This document shows positions 5,623 through 17,106 of a DNA stretch of 23,644 nucleotides, one piece after another. The notes under the pieces are model-generated. The model had not been told where the DNA came from. It made no database searches and worked only from the letters and a program-made list of their open reading frames with translations. Both the position numbers and the translations under genes were made by a program. The stretch's first letter is position 1. The number at the start of each line of letters is the position of its first letter. Origin of the DNA: a virus; IMG/VR virus record IMGVR_UViG_3300018080_004536, positions 1 to 23,644 of that record. One strand, written 5' to 3'.

Positions 5623-6432
5623 ATGAAGAAAATATTTTTAGTCGCAGCAGATATTGAGGCCGCAAGAGGCGAGCAGTTTTGGTATGCCGAGGCAGAGACA
5701 AAAGCGGAGGCAATCGACATTGTCAACAATGGCGGTGGGACTTTTTATGAAGAGGAAGTCGAAGTGACTTCGCTTGGAGGGTATTTTCATGCCGGAGAGC
5801 TCGACAGGGAAGATGTCGAAAAAATAGAAGCCGTTACGCAACACAAACAGTTTTCATTCAGAGGCGGGCTTCCGTTTGAAAACGGGAGCTATTTGGCGAT
5901 GTGGCCAGGCCGGGAAGACCCGGTGTTGACGGATTGTTTGTTTTATGACGGGGTGCAATACATCGGCGACTCGAATGGGCCGCTTGTTTCTGTGCACGAA
6001 ATTTATCGTGAAAAGTTGCCGAAATTTCTTGTTTCACAAAGCGGAAAATTTGTTTCTTTCACTCCGAAATTTGAAAGGCATTTGATCCCGGATTGGGCGT
6101 GCCGGGTTAGTTCAGAAGTCGTCCACAATGAATACGGCGAGCCAGAGCACGGGAAAAGCCTCGGGTTTTTTTGCCGATGGTGCGGTGCCTTGACATGCGC
6201 CGACAACGTAAAGGGTAGGCGTTCCAGTTGCCCGGCGTGCGGTGGCAATGATCAACCCAAGGTTAAATATTCAGACGCCGACAAAGGCGCCGAAGGCGGC
6301 CAGGTGGATTTCGATTGTAAGGATTGCGGGTTTCGGCTTGAAGTGGGCAATTTGCCCGGATCGACAATAACGATTCGGTGCCCGCAATGCAAAAGCAAGG
6401 TCCAAGGTTTCCAGCACAAAGGTGGAAACTGA
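5623..6432 (+). CDS. Hypothetical protein with two C-terminal zinc ribbons
   Basis: This encodes 269 residues, with the ATG preceded by GGGAGGAAG. The N-terminal 70 residues (KKIFLVAADIEAARGEQFWYAEAETKAEAIDIV...) resemble short phage domains that begin with a strand and carry an EAxxxAxxI helix. The C-terminal part has two zinc ribbons: CRWCGALTC...CPACG (about 184-207) and CKDCGF...CPQCKSK (about 231-258). Such paired ribbons usually grip nucleic acid or another protein. It lies 2 bp upstream of the sigma-like gene and is probably co-transcribed with it. No enzymatic motif was found. Confidence 0.7.
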   Translation: MKKIFLVAADIEAARGEQFWYAEAETKAEAIDIVNNGGGTFYEEEVEVTSLGGYFHAGELDREDVEKIEAVTQHKQFSFRGGLPFENGSYLAMWPGREDPVLTDCLFYDGVQYIGDSNGPLVSVHEIYREKLPKFLVSQSGKFVSFTPKFERHLIPDWACRVSSEVVHNEYGEPEHGKSLGFFCRWCGALTCADNVKGRRSSCPACGGNDQPKVKYSDADKGAEGGQVDFDCKDCGFRLEVGNLPGSTITIRCPQCKSKVQGFQHKGGN

Positions 6433-6433
6433 C

Positions 6434-6901
6434 ATGCCGTGCATACCGCTTGGGATGGGCGAAGAAGCATCCTCCAGGTTGAAAATGGCATCTGTTGAGC
6501 AAATCGAAGATGCGATCGATAACCGATATGGCATTCGTCTCGATGTGATGACGTTGCCGGCGATGTTGGAATCTGTTGTCTCGCTTCGGTATGGCCTTGG
6601 AGACGATTCGCACAAATTGACATACAAGGAGATAGGGCAATCAATCGGAGTGAGTGTCGAGAGAGCTCGGCAGTTGGAGTTTGATGCAATAAGGAAGCTG
6701 AGGCACAGCATCAATGAAAGGCGCATGAGGGAAAGGCACACGAAGTTTCTGCAAGCAGAGCAAGGCGGCTGGGATTCAAGGTTGCATGGTGTGAGACTGG
6801 GCCCCGTCGGCAAACTTTATATGGACTGGAAACGCGGCTGGTTGAGCGCGGATCGTGCCATTCACAGGCTGTCAACGATGGACGGAGGGAATAAGCCATG
6901 A
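6434..6901 (+). CDS. Stand-alone sigma-70 region 4-like protein
   Basis: This encodes 155 residues. Residues 46-91 match sigma region 4 closely: VVSLRYGLGDDSHKLTYKEI, GQSIGVSVERARQLEFDAIR and KLRH, the same layout as the RpoD C-terminus (VLRMRFG...TLEEVG...VTRERIRQIE..ALRKLRH). That domain binds -35 elements and the beta flap of RNA polymerase. Regions 2 and 3 are absent, so it cannot act as a full sigma factor. It may work as a phage transcription regulator that appropriates the flap, or as a -35-binding activator. The N-terminus (1-45) and C-terminus (92-155) are unassigned. The ATG at 6434 follows AAAGGTGG; a GTG four codons earlier is possible. It overlaps the next gene by ATGA. Confidence 0.8.
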   Translation: MPCIPLGMGEEASSRLKMASVEQIEDAIDNRYGIRLDVMTLPAMLESVVSLRYGLGDDSHKLTYKEIGQSIGVSVERARQLEFDAIRKLRHSINERRMRERHTKFLQAEQGGWDSRLHGVRLGPVGKLYMDWKRGWLSADRAIHRLSTMDGGNKP

Positions 6902-7143
6902 CCGCGGACAAGCAGCAAGAGCGAGCCAGGTGCATCGATTGCAAATGGCTTGAAGTAAGCACCGGTTACCCTCGATATATTTGCCACGTGCCGATACAGC
7001 GCAACCAGGCATACGATCCGATCCGTGGCTGGTATTTCATGACAGGCGATGCGCGAGATCGCAACGTGGACGGCCGGTGCAAGCACCAGCAGAAAACAAA
7101 AAAAGCATGGTTCAAGTCGCTGTTCAGAACGAATAGCAAGTGA
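6898..7143 (+). CDS. Small Cys-rich phage protein
   Basis: This encodes 81 residues starting in ATGA over the sigma-like gene's stop. Four cysteines are arranged as CIDC (12-15), C near 29 (YICHVP) and C near 61 (GRCKH), with a conserved-looking W/Y environment. This resembles the small four-cysteine proteins commonly found in phage accessory operons. The tail is strongly basic (KTKKAWFKSLFRTNSK). A metal site is likely; the role is unknown. Confidence 0.7.
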   Translation: MTADKQQERARCIDCKWLEVSTGYPRYICHVPIQRNQAYDPIRGWYFMTGDARDRNVDGRCKHQQKTKKAWFKSLFRTNSK

Positions 7144-7174
7144 CTGCCATTACGAACGAAAGAAGGATAAGGCC

Positions 7175-8374
7175 ATGAAATATTTAATTTACGTACTTTT
7201 CAGTACAGCTATCATTGGCGGGTGCCTGCCAGCAGAAGACGATACCAATACGGACACGGACGCCGATGCCGGCACCGATACTGATACGGACACTGACACA
7301 GATACCGATGCTGACACGGACACGGACACGGACGCCGATGCTGACACGGACGCCGATGCCGATACCGACACAGATACCGACACCGAATCAGAGGAAGATT
7401 CAAGCTGCATTAATGAAGCATGCTTAAACTATGACAACAAAACACACACTGGCTGCTCATGCCGCGAGGAGGGATTTTGCATTCCTGACATAGCTGGGAT
7501 TGATGTGTTTTGGCACCCTCTGACGTGCACGCTGGACTGCACTAATGATCCGAACATCTGTCTAGAAGGTTATCACTGTGTCGAGATACCTGCATTTGTT
7601 GGCGAAATTTACCCTGACACATTTCCAGGTTCGCTTTGTGCAAAAGACGAAGAAGGATCAGACACAGACCCAGACACTGATGAAGCGTTCGGGATAGAAT
7701 GGGTTCCGATCCCTGGCGGTGTTTTCCAGATGGGTACCGATGCCGGCCGTGAGAATGAATTACCAGTGCACACAGTGACAGTCCCTCTCTTCGAGATGCT
7801 GAAGTCAGAAGTAACGGTGGCACAATACAACGAATGTATCGAAGAGGGGGCATGCACGGAGCCAGGGGGAGGCGTGAATGCAACATGGCCACTACGTACA
7901 AATCATCCCGTGAATTATGTAAGCTGGTTTCAGGCAACTGATTTTTGTGAATGGGCCGGAGGCCACTTGCCATCAGAGGCGCAGTGGGAATATGCGGCAA
8001 CAAATTGTGGAGATCCTATTTTGTATCCATGGGGGGATTCCGTGGCCACTTGCGCAACGACAGTCATTTTTGAAAATGGCGATGGATGCGGAACTGGGTC
8101 GACGATGCCAGTGTGCAGCAAGCACGATGGGAATACCGATCAAGGGCTCTGTGACATGCATGGCAATGTCTGGGAGTGGATTCAAGACTGGTATCACCAA
8201 TCGTACACCGGAGCGCCGGATGACGGGACACCCTGGGAATCGCCCGAGGGTATTGTCAGAATCACTCGCGGCGGCGCCTTCAGCTACGATGGGACATACA
8301 CTGTGAAATATCGCAACGATCATGCTGACCCTTCGATTCAGTTTCAGGGTGATGGGTTTAGGTGTGCAAGGTGA
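7175..8374 (+). CDS. Lipoprotein with Asp-Thr linker and SUMF1 (FGE-sulfatase) domain
   Basis: This encodes 399 residues. The N-terminus is a lipoprotein signal: MK, a hydrophobic core, and lipobox IGG-C17. After export by Sec, the Cys would be acylated and the protein anchored in a membrane. Residues about 22-75 are almost entirely D with T or A, a flexible acidic linker. A Cys-rich block follows (about 80-160, some 11 cysteines), likely disulfide-bonded. From about 175 to the end runs a SUMF1/FGE-sulfatase domain: EWVPIPGGVFQMG, HTVTVPLFEMLKSEVTVAQY, HPVNYVSWFQATDFCEWAGG, LPSEAQWEYAA, DMHGNVWEWIQDWY, ITRGGAF and GDGFRCAR. The paired catalytic cysteines of true formylglycine-generating enzyme are not evident in the RGGAF segment, so a binding or C-lectin-like role is likelier. 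The architecture is typical of bacterial surface proteins and looks host-derived. The ATG at 7175 was chosen for the signal peptide and an AGAAGG upstream. Confidence 0.85.
   Translation: MKYLIYVLFSTAIIGGCLPAEDDTNTDTDADAGTDTDTDTDTDTDADTDTDTDADADTDADADTDTDTDTESEEDSSCINEACLNYDNKTHTGCSCREEGFCIPDIAGIDVFWHPLTCTLDCTNDPNICLEGYHCVEIPAFVGEIYPDTFPGSLCAKDEEGSDTDPDTDEAFGIEWVPIPGGVFQMGTDAGRENELPVHTVTVPLFEMLKSEVTVAQYNECIEEGACTEPGGGVNATWPLRTNHPVNYVSWFQATDFCEWAGGHLPSEAQWEYAATNCGDPILYPWGDSVATCATTVIFENGDGCGTGSTMPVCSKHDGNTDQGLCDMHGNVWEWIQDWYHQSYTGAPDDGTPWESPEGIVRITRGGAFSYDGTYTVKYRNDHADPSIQFQGDGFRCAR
7238..7395 (+). repeat. Simple GAYRCN-type coding repeat (Asp-Thr/Asp-Ala linker)
   Basis: About 26 hexameric units of a GAC/GAT codon followed by an ACN or GCN codon form the linker of the lipoprotein. 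The units vary (gacacg, gacgcc, gataccg and similar), so the tract is not a perfect microsatellite. Changes in unit number would keep the frame and alter linker length only. The tract creates long spurious Ser-Val reading frames on the minus strand. Confidence 0.85.
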
Positions 8375-11875: not shown

Positions 11876-12472
11876 ATGGCAACGAATGAAGAAAAGAAAG
11901 CCGCGGGGAAGCGGAAAAAAAAGGAAGAGCCACGGACTCACACGACTGTTCAATGCCTAGACGGTCGTGACCCGAAAAAACCGGGCCCCAAACCAAAGCG
12001 CAAATCGACGCCTCTTATATCGCGCGATACGTACAATCTGATGTATAAGGCGTACCTGGACAGGCAGAGCGTCAGGCACGTTGCAAAAACAGCAGGCGTT
12101 TCGCAGCAAACAGCAAACAAGTATGTCAACCATGGGGACCCAAAGCGGGGCATGATGTCGCTCCGTGACCGCATGGCAAAGATCCAAGACATGACGCGCC
12201 AGCAGCAGGACTATGACGTCGCGCGTGCGTGGGGAGAGTTCCAGAAGGCCGCCCGTGGCATCTTCATGAAGAACGTCCAGCGCATCAACGATATGAAGCC
12301 TGAGGAGCTCGATGCCAACAAGATTCCCGACAACCTCAACAAGCTACTGACTGTTGTCGAGCGAACCTTTGGCGGTGCAGAGCATACCCATGAAATCAAA
12401 GGGAAATATTCAGACTGGACCGTTGATGAATTACGAGGGTATCTCGAGAACGGTATTGAGCCGAATAAGTAG
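11876..12472 (+). CDS. Putative small terminase subunit (HTH protein)
   Basis: This encodes 198 residues. The first 45 residues are a Lys/Pro-rich tail. Residues about 52-86 form a helix-turn-helix (DTYNLMYKAYLDRQSVRHVA, KTAGVSQQTANKYVNHG). A helical middle and C-terminal part follow (MKPEELDANKIPDNLNKLLTVVER). DNA recognition by an N-terminal HTH with a helical oligomerisation part is the usual TerS design, and position at the head of a ParB...TerL...portal series supports it. TerS recognises the packaging site and loads TerL. The start has GAGGGAGAG directly before it. TerS proteins diverge strongly, so an alternative is a plain transcription regulator. Confidence 0.65.
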   Translation: MATNEEKKAAGKRKKKEEPRTHTTVQCLDGRDPKKPGPKPKRKSTPLISRDTYNLMYKAYLDRQSVRHVAKTAGVSQQTANKYVNHGDPKRGMMSLRDRMAKIQDMTRQQQDYDVARAWGEFQKAARGIFMKNVQRINDMKPEELDANKIPDNLNKLLTVVERTFGGAEHTHEIKGKYSDWTVDELRGYLENGIEPNK

Positions 12473-12569: not shown

Positions 12570-13265
12570 ATGGCAAAGAGCGAGAAGAAAAAGACAGTGA
12601 GCAAGAAAATAAACCCCAATGGTGCGTTGAAGGTTCCAGGGACGAATGTCTCGATGCTCAGCGGGCTTGAGCCGCTCCTCATACCGATTAGTGATGTTTC
12701 CCCTGACCCCGCTAACCCAAGGAGGGTGAAGGACTTAGGGGCCCTAGTGGGAAGCCTCAAGAGGTTCGGCCTGCGGAAGCCTATCGTTGCGAATGGGAGA
12801 AACAATATAATCGAAGCTGGGCACCAGACGCACCATGCGATGACCGAGCTTGGCGCGACTCATATCCCTGTTCTGTGGGCTGATGACGACGGGTTGACCG
12901 CGACGGCATTCAATATCGCGGACAACAGGACTGGTGAGATTGTTGCGGAATGGGATGACGAGATTCTTGCAAAACTATTGAGTGAGCTAAATGATGAGGA
13001 CTGTATCGATGATATAGGGTTTTCACAACAGCAGGTCGAAGGGCTGATTTCATCGTTTGTGGATCATGAAATCAAGGATGATGATGATTTGCCGGCAACC
13101 CCGTTTGATGATGATGATGAAGGTGGCGGCGTGGCGAACAGGGTGATTATTGTGTATGACAATGATTCACAAAAGGCGTCGCTGGAAAAGAAGCTTGGCG
13201 CCAAAATTGAGAAGGTTCTATATCATTTTGATGAGTTAATAAAAGGCGGCGACGATGCCATTTGA
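12570..13265 (+). CDS. ParB/Srx-fold domain protein
   Basis: This encodes 231 residues. Residues about 36-135 match the ParB-N/sulfiredoxin-like domain common in phages: LIPISDVSPDPANPRRVKDL with NPR at 49-51, LVGSLKRFGLRKPIVANG, IIEAGHQTHHAM (81-91), LGATHIPVLWADDDG, and IADNRTGEIVAEWDDEIL. This fold binds CTP or ATP. In typical members the GH motif is followed by arginines (GHGRLRA-like); here it is GHQTHHA. An acidic linker (DDDDLPATPFDDDDEGGG) leads to a small C-terminal domain (VANRVIIVYDNDSQKASLEK...). In phages such proteins accompany DNA methylases or base-modification enzymes. The start has AGTGAGG; the 3' end overlaps the radical SAM gene by 11 bp, implying joint expression. Confidence 0.85.
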   Translation: MAKSEKKKTVSKKINPNGALKVPGTNVSMLSGLEPLLIPISDVSPDPANPRRVKDLGALVGSLKRFGLRKPIVANGRNNIIEAGHQTHHAMTELGATHIPVLWADDDGLTATAFNIADNRTGEIVAEWDDEILAKLLSELNDEDCIDDIGFSQQQVEGLISSFVDHEIKDDDDLPATPFDDDDEGGGVANRVIIVYDNDSQKASLEKKLGAKIEKVLYHFDELIKGGDDAI

Positions 13266-14559
13266 ACTCGAGAAAAGGGAGTATCAGAGCCCGAGGTGGT
13301 CATACGAAATCGTGGATTGTTCGATGCCAATGTCCATCGATACATATTCCAATTGCGGTTATCAGTGTGCTTATTGTTTTTCGCAATACCAGCGTTCGAC
13401 TAAACAGACCAGGGGGAGCAAGTACAAGGAGCGAAAGCTTGTTCAGGCTATTTCCCCTGAGCGGATAAAGCGTATGTTCACCGGTGAAATTCAAATGTCG
13501 AAAAAAAGTAAGTTGGGTCCAGAGTCAGGTGGATATTGGCAGTTCAATAAGTATATTGAGCAGCGCAAGATGATGCAGTGGGGCGGGCTCAGTGATCCGT
13601 TTTGTTCAATTGAACGCGAGCTCGGTGTCGGGTTAGAGGTGATGCGTTTTTTGCGATCAATCGATTATCCAATTTCTTTTAGCACGAAGGGGACATGGTT
13701 CCTTGATGATGAACGCTACATGGAATTGTTCCGGAATAACCTCAATTGGCATGTTAAGTTTTCGATCATAACAGGGGACAAAAAAAAGGCTGCATTTATA
13801 GAGAAGGGCGTCCGTTCCCCGGCTGAGCGCTTACGGGCAATTGAGCGCTTCGCAAAGGTTATGCCAAGGAAAGGTGCTGTCACATTGCGCTTGCGCCCTT
13901 TTATAATCGGCGTTTCCAACCCATCGCATAAGGAATTAATCAAAAGTGCTGCTGATGCTGGCGCCGGGTCTGTGAGCACCGAGTTTTTTTGTATGGAAGG
14001 CAGGCTTTCTGATAAATCCGTTTATGATGTAATCAGTAATCAATGTGGGTTTGATATCTACAATTTTTATCGCCGGCACACCAAAGGTGCCGGGTATCTT
14101 CGTTTGAACCGTGAGATCAAGCGCCAATACATAGACGAGATGGAGGACGCGGCAAGAAGTGCTGGCATTGGGTTTTATGTTTCAGACGCACACTTCAAGG
14201 AAAGAAGTGATTCCGGGTGTTGCTGCGGAATGGATAACACATGGCCTTGGTCGCGGGGGCAGCTTTGCCAGGCGTTACAGGTGGCTAAAAATACAGGTGT
14301 GGTCACTTGGGATGACATAAGCGACGGGTTAGAGTTCGCGGAGATTTTCGGGCACAGGCATGCCCAGGGGTATAACACCAAGTGCGAAGAAAACAAGGCC
14401 AAGTACATGAGAAAGTCGATGAAAGAATTTTTGCGGTGCAATTGGAACAGCACAACCGGAGCGAACGGGCCATATCGGTTTTTTGGCGGTGTGCTTACGC
14501 CTGCCGAGAGGGATGAAAAAGGGAATCTTGTTTACAAATTTAACAAGGAGAAAATTTGA
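13255..14559 (+). CDS. Radical SAM enzyme, spore photoproduct lyase (SPL)-like
   Basis: This encodes 434 residues. C34-x3-C38-x2-C41 (CGYQCAYC) is the [4Fe-4S] motif that cleaves S-adenosylmethionine to a 5'-deoxyadenosyl radical. The following WGGLSDPFCSIERELGVGLE and ISFSTKGTWFLDD resemble the 'G-x-x-D-P-x-x-x-x-E' and 'TK' segments of SPL-like proteins, some of which act on DNA thymine dimers. A CCC run at 322-324, with C337 nearby, could hold an auxiliary cluster. It is flanked by ParB-like and glycosyltransferase genes with overlaps on both sides, and by terminase genes beyond. I infer a reaction on a nucleobase or nucleotide, but the substrate is unknown; tRNA or protein modification are alternatives. 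Confidence 0.85.
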   Translation: MPFELEKREYQSPRWSYEIVDCSMPMSIDTYSNCGYQCAYCFSQYQRSTKQTRGSKYKERKLVQAISPERIKRMFTGEIQMSKKSKLGPESGGYWQFNKYIEQRKMMQWGGLSDPFCSIERELGVGLEVMRFLRSIDYPISFSTKGTWFLDDERYMELFRNNLNWHVKFSIITGDKKKAAFIEKGVRSPAERLRAIERFAKVMPRKGAVTLRLRPFIIGVSNPSHKELIKSAADAGAGSVSTEFFCMEGRLSDKSVYDVISNQCGFDIYNFYRRHTKGAGYLRLNREIKRQYIDEMEDAARSAGIGFYVSDAHFKERSDSGCCCGMDNTWPWSRGQLCQALQVAKNTGVVTWDDISDGLEFAEIFGHRHAQGYNTKCEENKAKYMRKSMKEFLRCNWNSTTGANGPYRFFGGVLTPAERDEKGNLVYKFNKEKI

Positions 14560-15509
14560 TGCGCGTCGGTCTTGTTTCAATGCGTTGGTGTGATTTTGGA
14601 GGTTGGCCAACATACACGAGACACCTTTATACCGGGTTGCAGCAAGCAGGACACGAGCCGACTGTGTTGACTGATGGCAAGGTGATGTCCGGTTGGAAGG
14701 GCGTTATGAACTTTGCGCCGATTGATAACCTGGAGGAATATGACAAGTTGATAGTCGTTGTTTTTGCGCCAGACGCGGAAGTTTCCGCGAAAATTCGTGG
14801 CAAAATCGATGCGATGGTGTTGCATGACCCAACCGAGTGGAGGAGGAAAGCGGCGAAGCGGCTCATTTGCAAACTTGAGCCGCCGCAGTTGATTTTTATA
14901 AGGGACAAACCGTTGCGCACATTTTTGAATGCTGGATTTTATCGGTTGGCGCGAACTGATTTTATCCCACACCCTTATGCCAGGATGTGTGACAAGCATG
15001 CACCAACCGACCGTGTCATTTGCACTGCCCGCGTAGATCATGACAAACGTACGCATCTTATCGTAAAGGCCGACCGAGGTGTTGAACTTTGGACCGGGTA
15101 TATAAACTGGGTCTATGATCAGGAGCGGTTCGATTCCTCCCTAAAGAAGCAGGCTTTTTACAAAGGTGCGTTTGGGTTTAAACGCGAAGATATTGCGAAT
15201 GTTTACGATGGCGCTTGTGCGCTTGTGGATATGAGCATAATCGCAGGCGATGGCGGCGGTACACAGTATACGTTTTTAGAGGCGATTGATTTTGGCGCGG
15301 ACTGCATTTTGGCAAGTGATTGGTATGCCGGGCCGCGCAGCGAAATGAAGCCTGGCGTGCATTATCATCAAGTTGGGAATGTGAAGGAGTTGCAGGGTGC
15401 GATCGACAAGGTTCGCCACGGCGGCCCGGTGTTGCAATGTGCTGCCAAGGATATCCTGGTGAGCCATGATGCCGAACAGATCGCAAGGCAATACATAGAG
15501 CTGCTATGA
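14559..15509 (+). CDS. GT-B glycosyltransferase (GT4-like)
   Basis: This encodes 316 residues. The N-terminal half begins MRVGLVSMRWCDFGGWPTYT then RHLYTGLQQAGHEPTVLTDG, the usual GT4 opening with a glycine loop and acceptor-side Rossmann fold. The C-terminal half has VICTARVDHDKRTHLIVKA and DGGGTQYTFLEAIDFGADCI, with E241 in the position of the donor-binding E-x7-E/G motif. Such enzymes move a sugar from a nucleotide-sugar donor. The ATG at 14559 lies in TGATG, 9 bases after AAGGAG. In coupling with the radical SAM gene it may glycosylate a modified base in phage DNA, but LPS or capsule modification cannot be excluded. The domain is shorter than many GT4 proteins. Confidence 0.8.
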   Translation: MRVGLVSMRWCDFGGWPTYTRHLYTGLQQAGHEPTVLTDGKVMSGWKGVMNFAPIDNLEEYDKLIVVVFAPDAEVSAKIRGKIDAMVLHDPTEWRRKAAKRLICKLEPPQLIFIRDKPLRTFLNAGFYRLARTDFIPHPYARMCDKHAPTDRVICTARVDHDKRTHLIVKADRGVELWTGYINWVYDQERFDSSLKKQAFYKGAFGFKREDIANVYDGACALVDMSIIAGDGGGTQYTFLEAIDFGADCILASDWYAGPRSEMKPGVHYHQVGNVKELQGAIDKVRHGGPVLQCAAKDILVSHDAEQIARQYIELL

Positions 15510-15522
15510 ATTTGGCACAGCA

Positions 15523-17106
15523 ATGACTGCATTAACATTACATGTGTCCCACAAGGACCCAGTCGGGCACTTGTATAGTTACGATACGTCCAAGGTTGCC
15601 GTGCCAGGGAACGAAGAGGCGACGCGCCTTGAGTTGCGGGCCCAGGTCAGTGCCGTGAAAGGGCTCCGGATCGCAGAGGCCCGTACGAAGTTCGGTCCGT
15701 TCATGGAGTATTGCTTCTTTGACGAGACGACTCGGGAGCCTTATCGGCAACAATGGTTCCATGATGAATGGGCAGATGCTTGGTCTGAATTCGATCGTGT
15801 GATCATTGTTGCACCCAGGGACCATGGGAAGACGTCGCAAATTGTTGGGCGTGTGATCTGGGAGCTTGGGCGAAACCCAAATTTGAGAATCAAAATCGCG
15901 TGTGCCGCGGATGGCCGGGCGAAAGAGCGGTTGTTCGAGATCATTCAGCATATCCAATATAACAAGCGCATCCAGGAGGTATTTCCTGAGCTGAAGCAAG
16001 ACAATGATGCTGAGTGGTCAAAACACAAAATCGTTGTAAAGCGAACCGCTATGCACAGGGATGCATCGGTCGAAGCGCTAGGCATCACTGCGACGGCAAC
16101 CGGCGGCCGTTGCGATTTGTTGATTGCGGACGATGTTGTTGATCGCCGTAATGCGCTGTCTTTCCCGAAGCTCCGCGAACAAATCAAGCAAGCATGGAAG
16201 TCCGACTGGACAAACCTTCTCGAGCCAGAGTCTCGTGTTTGGTATATTTGTACGCTTTGGCATAAAGATGATCTCAGCCACGAGTTGATGGAAAACGAAG
16301 CGTTTGAAACTTTGTTTTATGCAGTGGACCAAGGGTTCGGTGCACTGTGGCCAGACAAGTGGCCAAGTGACGCATTACGCAAACGCCATGCGGAAATCGG
16401 GTCGATTGAATTTAACCGCGGGTTCCGCAACAAAGCTGTCGATGATACGACCGCTGTCGTCCAGGAAAGTTGGATTCAGTACAAAGACCTCGCGGCTGAC
16501 CCAGGGTTTATTGAGCGACTTCCGTACATGCAAATCATCACGAGCTATGATACGGCGCGGGCAACTCATGCCAGCTCGGATTACAGTGCCAATTGCACAA
16601 TCGCGGTCGACTTGGACAAACAAACCGTTTACGTGCTGAATGCCTGGCATGCACACCTGACAGTGAAGAAACAATCAGAGCAAGTACGGAAAGAATATCT
16701 GCTTTATAAGCCCTATCGCATTTTGATTGAGAAGATCGGGCAAGCGGTTCTCGATGAATGGGTGCTGAACGACTACCCAGACATGAAGTCAGTTATCGAA
16801 GTCACGACGCCAAAGGTGAGCAAGCACCAACGATTGCTGGCGGTGACTCCGTTGATGGAAGCAGGCCGCGTGATCTTCAATTCAACGATGGACCCGAATG
16901 GCGATACATGGGAGCCGTCCCAGGGTTCGCTGGTTCACGAGTTACTGGATTTTCCTTTTGGAAAACACGACGATATGGTTGATGCATTTTCTCAGGCACT
17001 TCATGGCGCAAGGCGATACTTCCTTGACGCATGGGCGTCTGGCGCCGACAATGATATAGACGTTCGAATCGGGGGCGATGTCGAAAACGATGGGTATGCA
17101 TACTGA
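15523..17106 (+). CDS. terL: Terminase large subunit (TerL)
   Basis: This encodes 527 residues. The ATPase domain has a Walker A-like APRDHGKT (97-104) and Walker B LLIADD with D203-D204. The C-terminal RNase H-like nuclease has D343 in SYDTA, a conserved GKHDDMVDAF with D483, D484 and D487, and E396-region acidic residues (ILIEKIG). This motor powers DNA translocation into the prohead and cuts the concatemer. The start at 15523 lacks an obvious Shine-Dalgarno and lies 13 bp after the glycosyltransferase stop. It is full length for the family. The separation of TerS and TerL by three putative DNA-modification genes is unusual, since TerS and TerL are normally adjacent. Confidence 0.95.
   Translation: MTALTLHVSHKDPVGHLYSYDTSKVAVPGNEEATRLELRAQVSAVKGLRIAEARTKFGPFMEYCFFDETTREPYRQQWFHDEWADAWSEFDRVIIVAPRDHGKTSQIVGRVIWELGRNPNLRIKIACAADGRAKERLFEIIQHIQYNKRIQEVFPELKQDNDAEWSKHKIVVKRTAMHRDASVEALGITATATGGRCDLLIADDVVDRRNALSFPKLREQIKQAWKSDWTNLLEPESRVWYICTLWHKDDLSHELMENEAFETLFYAVDQGFGALWPDKWPSDALRKRHAEIGSIEFNRGFRNKAVDDTTAVVQESWIQYKDLAADPGFIERLPYMQIITSYDTARATHASSDYSANCTIAVDLDKQTVYVLNAWHAHLTVKKQSEQVRKEYLLYKPYRILIEKIGQAVLDEWVLNDYPDMKSVIEVTTPKVSKHQRLLAVTPLMEAGRVIFNSTMDPNGDTWEPSQGSLVHELLDFPFGKHDDMVDAFSQALHGARRYFLDAWASGADNDIDVRIGGDVENDGYAY

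Follow-up and report, generated by a model that had tools for sequence, protein, structure and literature searches.

A three-gene cassette between TerS-like and TerL genes

We analysed a 23,644-base stretch of viral DNA (hereafter the window), which is the entire IMG/VR record IMGVR_UViG_3300018080_004536 and itself a fragment, and focused on three consecutive genes for a ParB-like protein, a radical S-adenosylmethionine (SAM) enzyme and a glycosyltransferase. All three are encoded on the plus strand and are close or overlapping between a gene resembling the terminase small subunit (TerS) and the gene for the large subunit (TerL); the coordinates, the 11-base overlap and the TGATG junction given in a first-pass annotation of the window were all confirmed. 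The upstream border is formed by a helix-turn-helix-containing protein of 198 amino acids (11876..12472, plus strand) without a confident family match. Its relatives lie close to TerL in many TerL-related contigs and the label "TerS-like" is therefore fair, but not proven. The downstream border is TerL itself (15523..17106, plus strand, 527 amino acids; PHROG_38, 2e-80), which served as the query for finding relatives.

The ParB-like protein (12570..13265, 231 amino acids) matches PHROG_620 (ParB-like, 5e-33) and PHROG_498 (DNA methyltransferase, 9e-29). Its score against Pfam ParB_N (17.3 bits) is under the cut-off and the ParB superfamily was assigned via PHROG_620; judged from these matches, the protein has the type of domain that phage ParB-methyltransferase fusions carry at their N-terminus, with a GHQTHHA box vs the canonical GERRxxA, a departure that bears on the first-pass idea of a nucleotide-dependent partner. 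The radical SAM enzyme (13255..14559, 434 amino acids), which belongs to a family that we call c1, overlaps the ParB-like gene by 11 bases and carries a CxxxCxxC motif at C34/C38/C41. It scores below the cut-off in Pfam (E 2e-5, 25.2 bits vs 29.5), far below it for NCBIfam PA0069 (5e-13, 48.7 bits vs 360) and below it for NCBIfam Rv2578c (34.4 bits vs 430); its radical SAM identity was confirmed by the fold of a structure model. The GT-B type glycosyltransferase (14559..15509, 316 amino acids, cluster c38) starts at the ATG at 14559 within TGATG, the mechanical open reading frame start being a TTG at 14556. It reaches 16 bits in Pfam, below the cut-off, while its cluster relatives in contigs L073 and L086 exceed the Pfam cut-offs for group 1 glycosyltransferases. 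Its best named match is a lipopolysaccharide galactosyltransferase (E 0.02).

c1 is a phage radical SAM family with a fold close to spore photoproduct lyase

The c1 family was found via TerL relatives and then with an alignment of five members as search query, which placed members on 59 viral contigs. In genome collections, the same query gave 15 true members and two further hits, at ~20% identity, that were judged not to belong to the family. The 15 are filed under Bacteroides, Phocaeicola, Prevotella, Mediterranea, other Bacteroidaceae, Victivallales, Lachnospiraceae, Clostridia, Atopobiaceae, Bacilli and Methanobrevibacter, all of them gut-anaerobe lineages, on contigs that mostly come from metagenome-assembled genomes and may be mis-binned. 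As a single-protein query, the window enzyme had no match in isolate phages or viral contigs, and c1 matches in isolate phages are remote at best. In PHROGs, 53/57 members match phrog_13321 alone, a family of unknown function. Our literature search, which did not cover Iyer 2013 and Lee 2022, found no paper on c1 or on 5-hydroxymethyluracil (5-hmU) made by a radical SAM enzyme in phages, and c1 appears to be a widespread phage family that was previously undescribed.

The cluster cysteines C34, C38 and C41 are kept in 56, 56 and 57 of 57 sequences, respectively. Further cysteines are conserved too (C246, C323 and C324 in 57/57, C22 in 53/54 alignment rows that extend so far) and might bind an auxiliary cluster or relay a radical. 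An AlphaFold2 model built from the 57 sequences (pLDDT 93.8) combines the CxxxCxxC motif with the (beta/alpha) barrel of the radical SAM superfamily. Spore photoproduct lyase (SPL) was its top Foldseek match (E 5e-8; runner-up 7e-5) and also its best VIA-align match, with a Z score of 19.0 across 262 residues (3.0 A); the second-best family scored 15.8. At the sequence level, the c1 profile gave no relevant match among solved structures, and no SPL chain at E<=10. Repair by SPL passes through a thymine allylic radical that is quenched by a cysteine (PMC5368176).

c1 sits beside two alternative modification arms

The neighbours of c1 were counted within seven genes in 57 non-redundant loci, with Pfam identities taken from representatives. 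ParB is present in 50 loci, TAGT glycosyltransferases in 21, amino-acid:DNA transferases (ADDT) in 19, kinases in 18 and small GNAT proteins in 11; rarer companions are SAM synthetase (4), radical SAM enzymes like that of phage M6 (4), the window-type glycosyltransferase (3), another GT-B type (2), PIG-L deacetylase (2) and TET (1). These relatives thus adjoin DNA-hypermodification genes, which supports the first-pass proposal that the trio is a DNA-modification module. A glycosyltransferase occurs in 25/57 loci, never together with ADDT or with a kinase (chance 5e-7 and 1.5e-6); L003 was scored here as lacking one by gene calling, though its contig holds TAGT. When these arms were mapped on the radical SAM tree, well-supported branches forced at least 11 changes, sister loci could differ (L057 with ADDT vs L067 with TAGT, support 100/99), and in phylogenetically independent pairs the arm labels never went the same way (median p 0.03). 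Because the arms exclude each other and swap on the tree, one radical SAM family serves two interchangeable arms. Both, in their known versions, require a 5-hydroxymethylpyrimidine. For glycosyltransferases of the TET/JGT kind and kinases acting on 5-hydroxymethyldeoxyuridine (5-hmdU), the common substrate is a hydroxymethyl base (PMC6449724; PMC12783734).

Individual loci carry further genes. In L047, which displays the exchange in full, the order is ParB, ParB, c1, ADDT, pyridoxal phosphate (PLP) enzyme, M6-like radical SAM isomerase and kinase. SAM synthetase genes lie near c1 in L094, L099, L104 and L105, which fits one SAM spent per modified base. In L056 and L067, a PIG-L type de-N-acetylase adjoins TAGT and c1, and the DNA sugar may there be an N-acetylhexosamine that is then deacetylated. 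Ahead of c1 in L032 (3144-6678) stand a glutamine amidotransferase, ADDT, an amidoligase-like protein (recognised by eye, with no Pfam match), a GNAT protein and a kinase, possibly for an elaborate amino-acid modification. B12-dependent or B12-type radical SAM enzymes neighbour c1 in some loci, including L003, the nearest relative, where c1 stands with TAGT in place of the window-type glycosyltransferase.

Relatives of the window glycosyltransferase lie beside c1 in L073, L086 and L091. A neighbourhood search, which the first-pass annotation had suggested as a check, thus showed that the same-cluster ParB-rSAM-GT order recurs in distant phages (L073 and L086/L091). The motif GDGGGTQYTF(L/F)EA is conserved between the window protein and its L073 and L086 homologues; a single-protein search with the window protein retrieved nothing beyond one near-identical contig. 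In L086 a TAGT gene follows the GT-B gene, so the GT-B enzyme there might add a second sugar. As for ParB, the idea that it is specific to c1 was rejected, since it also accompanies the 7-deazaguanine and TAGT modules found at the same genomic position; it is best read as a near-constant companion with an accessory role. ParBc proteins, of unknown function, have been reported near a phage cytosine carboxymethyltransferase (PMC12783734).

c1 alternates with the known first-step enzymes

Complex phage thymidine modifications are thought to begin with 5-hmdU made by a thymidylate synthase (TS) homologue or by an oxygen-dependent dioxygenase. The first-pass annotation had remarked that no gene for such a first step lies in the window. 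Family scans and a search with the M6 TS agreed, finding no TS, TET, ADDT or kinase there, nor TAGT or Que/DpdA genes; because the window is only a fragment, genes absent from it tell little about the virus, and the likely answer is that the radical SAM family itself fills the TS/TET place, as it does in relatives. Of the 34 records that carry c1, the longest of 140 kb, none encodes a homologue of TS, the family to which the hmdU/hmdC synthases belong, and three encode TET/JBP (L055, L058 and L060, each also with TAGT in the locus).

Two control sets were picked by ADDT alone. In the M6-type set (36 records of at least 30 kb), TS was found in 35/36 and c1 in 0/36. The second ADDT type (28 records) was mixed: TS in 4, c1 in 8, TET in 15 (13 above the cut-off) and none of these in 1, with zero overlap, an outcome with a chance of 1e-7 given these margins when relatedness is ignored. 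For six of the eight c1 records in this set, TET and TS were sought by local search; the other two were covered by the scans of c1-bearing records. Source labels switch 10 times on the best ADDT tree, and one clade (99/94) contains c1, TET and TS members; the record without a source falls in this clade as the sister (100/99) of a c1 record, and its contig breaks off near the ADDT gene. Judged on sequence, the alternation of TS, TET and c1 is a pattern of non-orthologous replacement.

A proposed pathway and its alternatives

The trio is very probably a DNA-base modification module, and the radical SAM enzyme is probably the source of the chemical handle. The overall explanation that we favour, with some reserve, is a phage DNA-base glycosylation module in which the radical SAM enzyme creates the handle, the glycosyltransferase adds a sugar and the ParB-like protein acts as recruiter. 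In the first step, the SPL-like enzyme would activate thymine at its 5-methyl group, most probably with the base already part of DNA. A thymine allylic radical that loses one electron and is then trapped by water would yield the 5-hydroxymethyl handle (5-hmU) without oxygen, and the enzyme would stand in for the TS-homologous 5-hmdUMP synthase or the TET/JBP oxygenase. That 5-hmU, formed on DNA without oxygen, is the c1 product seems to us a near-even proposition. The GT-B glycosyltransferase would then add a sugar to the hydroxyl, yielding a base-J-like glycosylated hmU, and the ParB-like protein would recruit the enzymes to DNA or provide site choice. More generally, we tentatively propose that c1 enzymes hydroxylate the thymine methyl group in DNA without using oxygen and are the anaerobic equivalent of both TET/JBP and the TS-type 5-hmdU synthase. 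In phages of anaerobes, their product would enter either glycosylation, giving hmU with a base-J-like sugar, or amino-acid hypermodification. The first-pass interpretation, in which a base is altered by radical chemistry and then glycosylated, is thus partly supported; the module context speaks largely, not fully, for it. The evidence behind this pathway is genomic and structural, and its chemistry is inferred.

Several observations weigh against this pathway. Hydroxylation by a radical SAM enzyme needs an additional oxidation step with an electron acceptor. The TET-bearing c1 contigs L055, L058 and L060 are the sole exceptions seen to the exclusive pattern, and since they encode both enzymes, c1 is not always a substitute. 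In addition, 28 TAGT-bearing records (e.g. L005, L197, L213, L267) encode neither TS, TET nor c1, which rules out the idea that each phage with a DNA glycosyltransferase needs one of the three; some DNA glycosyltransferases work with another first step or none, and these phages may have one more kind of first-step enzyme or may glycosylate a base that is not modified beforehand. The first-step argument is accordingly stronger on the ADDT side than on the glycosyltransferase side, and absences are soft throughout because IMG/VR records are often fragments. Alignments spanning TAGT broadly proved too divergent for scanning. The window glycosyltransferase type is found beside c1 in few contigs (L073, L086/L091 and L002), and its structure model, built from three sequences, reached a pLDDT of 47 and was not used.

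Among the alternatives, the one that survives best, though we consider it unlikely, makes c1 a tailoring enzyme that acts further down the pathway, comparable to the M6 radical SAM isomerase, and rearranges an attached group while the hydroxymethyl comes from an unrecognised gene. The M6 pathway does include a COG1533-like radical SAM enzyme (gp53) with remote similarity to c1 across the barrel. Yet c1 is common to the glycosyl and amino-acid arms, which share no attached group, and across the ADDT tree it trades places with TS and TET. Moreover, relatives of gp53 coexist with c1 in L047, L062, L082 and L089 (an M6-like PLP enzyme and isomerase beside c1 in L047, L062 and L089, the isomerase in L082), hence c1 is not that enzyme; equating the two was rejected on this ground and because the match is a remote one limited to the barrel (columns 31-229).

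Less probable still is that c1 makes a different handle, for instance on cytosine, or an alkyl or amino group rather than a hydroxyl, for use by the glycosyltransferase or kinase. The association of TAGT enzymes with TET systems, the TET genes of three c1 contigs and the B12-dependent radical SAM enzymes that adjoin c1 in some loci would all suit this idea, but the ADDT, PLP enzyme and kinase of c1 loci are related to enzymes that act on 5-hmdU, and the SPL-like fold of the model points to thymine. Finally, that these are ordinary accessory genes, a photolyase-like repair enzyme and an envelope- or protein-directed glycosyltransferase placed beside the terminase by chance, is highly improbable: the lipopolysaccharide enzyme match and the repair-enzyme fold lean that way, but dozens of unrelated loci join c1 to DNA-modification genes and the same slot carries 7-deazaguanine-type genes in TerL relatives (FolE identified with Pfam, QueE- and DpdA-like genes from inspection of the sequence). 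The first-pass concern that the glycosyltransferase might match cell-envelope enzymes only is answered in the same way, its setting being DNA modification.

Comparison with known DNA-modification systems

In phages M6, ViI and phiW-14, hmdU is the common intermediate (PMC6449724), and the system comprises a TS-homologous hmdU synthase, the 5-hmdU DNA kinase 5-HMUDK, ADDT, a PLP enzyme and a radical SAM isomerase. As in these phages, c1 lies beside ADDT, a kinase and, in some loci, a PLP enzyme and a gp53-like radical SAM enzyme, in modules often near terminase genes. Unlike them, c1 records have no TS homologue (0/34), c1 is another radical SAM family than gp53, and the window carries a glycosyltransferase in place of kinase and ADDT. 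Phage M6 gp54 (L113:21686-22249), annotated as a terminase small subunit, matches Pfam HMUDK_HMUD1, the 5-hmdU DNA kinase (8e-18).

Phage TET/JBP plus TAGT systems and kinetoplastid base J (JBP plus JGT) share with c1 loci the predicted logic of hydroxymethylation followed by glycosylation, and TAGT accompanies c1 in 21/57 loci; the differences are that a radical SAM enzyme would replace the oxygen-dependent dioxygenase and that the window glycosyltransferase is GT-B group 1, not TAGT. SPL (SplB), the closest solved fold to the c1 model, is a radical SAM enzyme whose substrate is thymine in DNA, as proposed for c1, whereas c1 has no recognisable sequence match to solved structures and differs by the extra conserved cysteines (22, 246, 323 and 324), a C-terminal region and its phage operon. 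Genes of phage 7-deazaguanine modification (FolE/QueD/QueE/QueC/DpdA) fill the same ParB/TerL slot in relatives, but none is present in the window and the chemistry is another. In cytosine carboxymethylation by CmoX/CmoY (Nat Commun 2025), a handle is also installed and then decorated, often with a ParBc protein nearby; there, the carboxymethyl handle is methyltransferase-derived, without radical SAM enzyme or TET/TS (PMC12783734).

If true, a third, radical-based route to 5-hmdU would explain such DNA in phages of strict anaerobes and would be a new reaction for the radical SAM superfamily, close to that of SPL, by an enzyme that can be directly tested. A further prediction of such a route is base-J-like glycosylated 5-hmU in phage DNA, a modification unreported in phages as of 2019 (PMC6449724).

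An exchangeable terminase-adjacent slot and other genes of the window

The TerL search retrieved 34 related contigs, several of them near 95-100 kb, and most carry DNA-modification genes and ParB upstream of TerL, although counts near TerL are possibly biased by the way the contigs were found. The slot next to ParB and TerL holds 7-deazaguanine-type genes in L007, L008, L010, L013 and L016-L018 (FolE on Pfam evidence; QueE-, QueD-, QueC- and DpdA-like genes recognised by eye), TAGT in L005, L026 and L034 (Pfam confirmation for L005 and L026) and relatives of the window radical SAM enzyme in L003, L019, L022, L027, L030 and L032. Gene content thus describes an exchangeable modification island that swaps 7-deazaguanine, TAGT and radical SAM modules while its terminase-adjacent position is conserved, which makes it a good place to seek further DNA chemistry. 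The first-pass suggestion that the modification might protect DNA from host nucleases during packaging finds only a suggestive sign in this location. B12-type radical SAM genes lie near ParB in L015 (4656-7971), L026 and L034; the one in L015 also adjoins a C5-cytosine DNA methylase directly upstream of TerL, perhaps for a radical extension of 5-methylcytosine.

Elsewhere in the window, positions 1020-1757 encode a MazG-like nucleotide pyrophosphohydrolase (barely above the cut-off) and positions 6422-6901 a sigma-70 region 4 protein (1e-12). The protein encoded at 7049-8374 combines a long Asp-Thr-rich repeat with an FGE-sulfatase domain (3e-48); proteins of this type occur among deltaproteobacterial lipoproteins, which offers a tentative hint at the host or at virion decoration.

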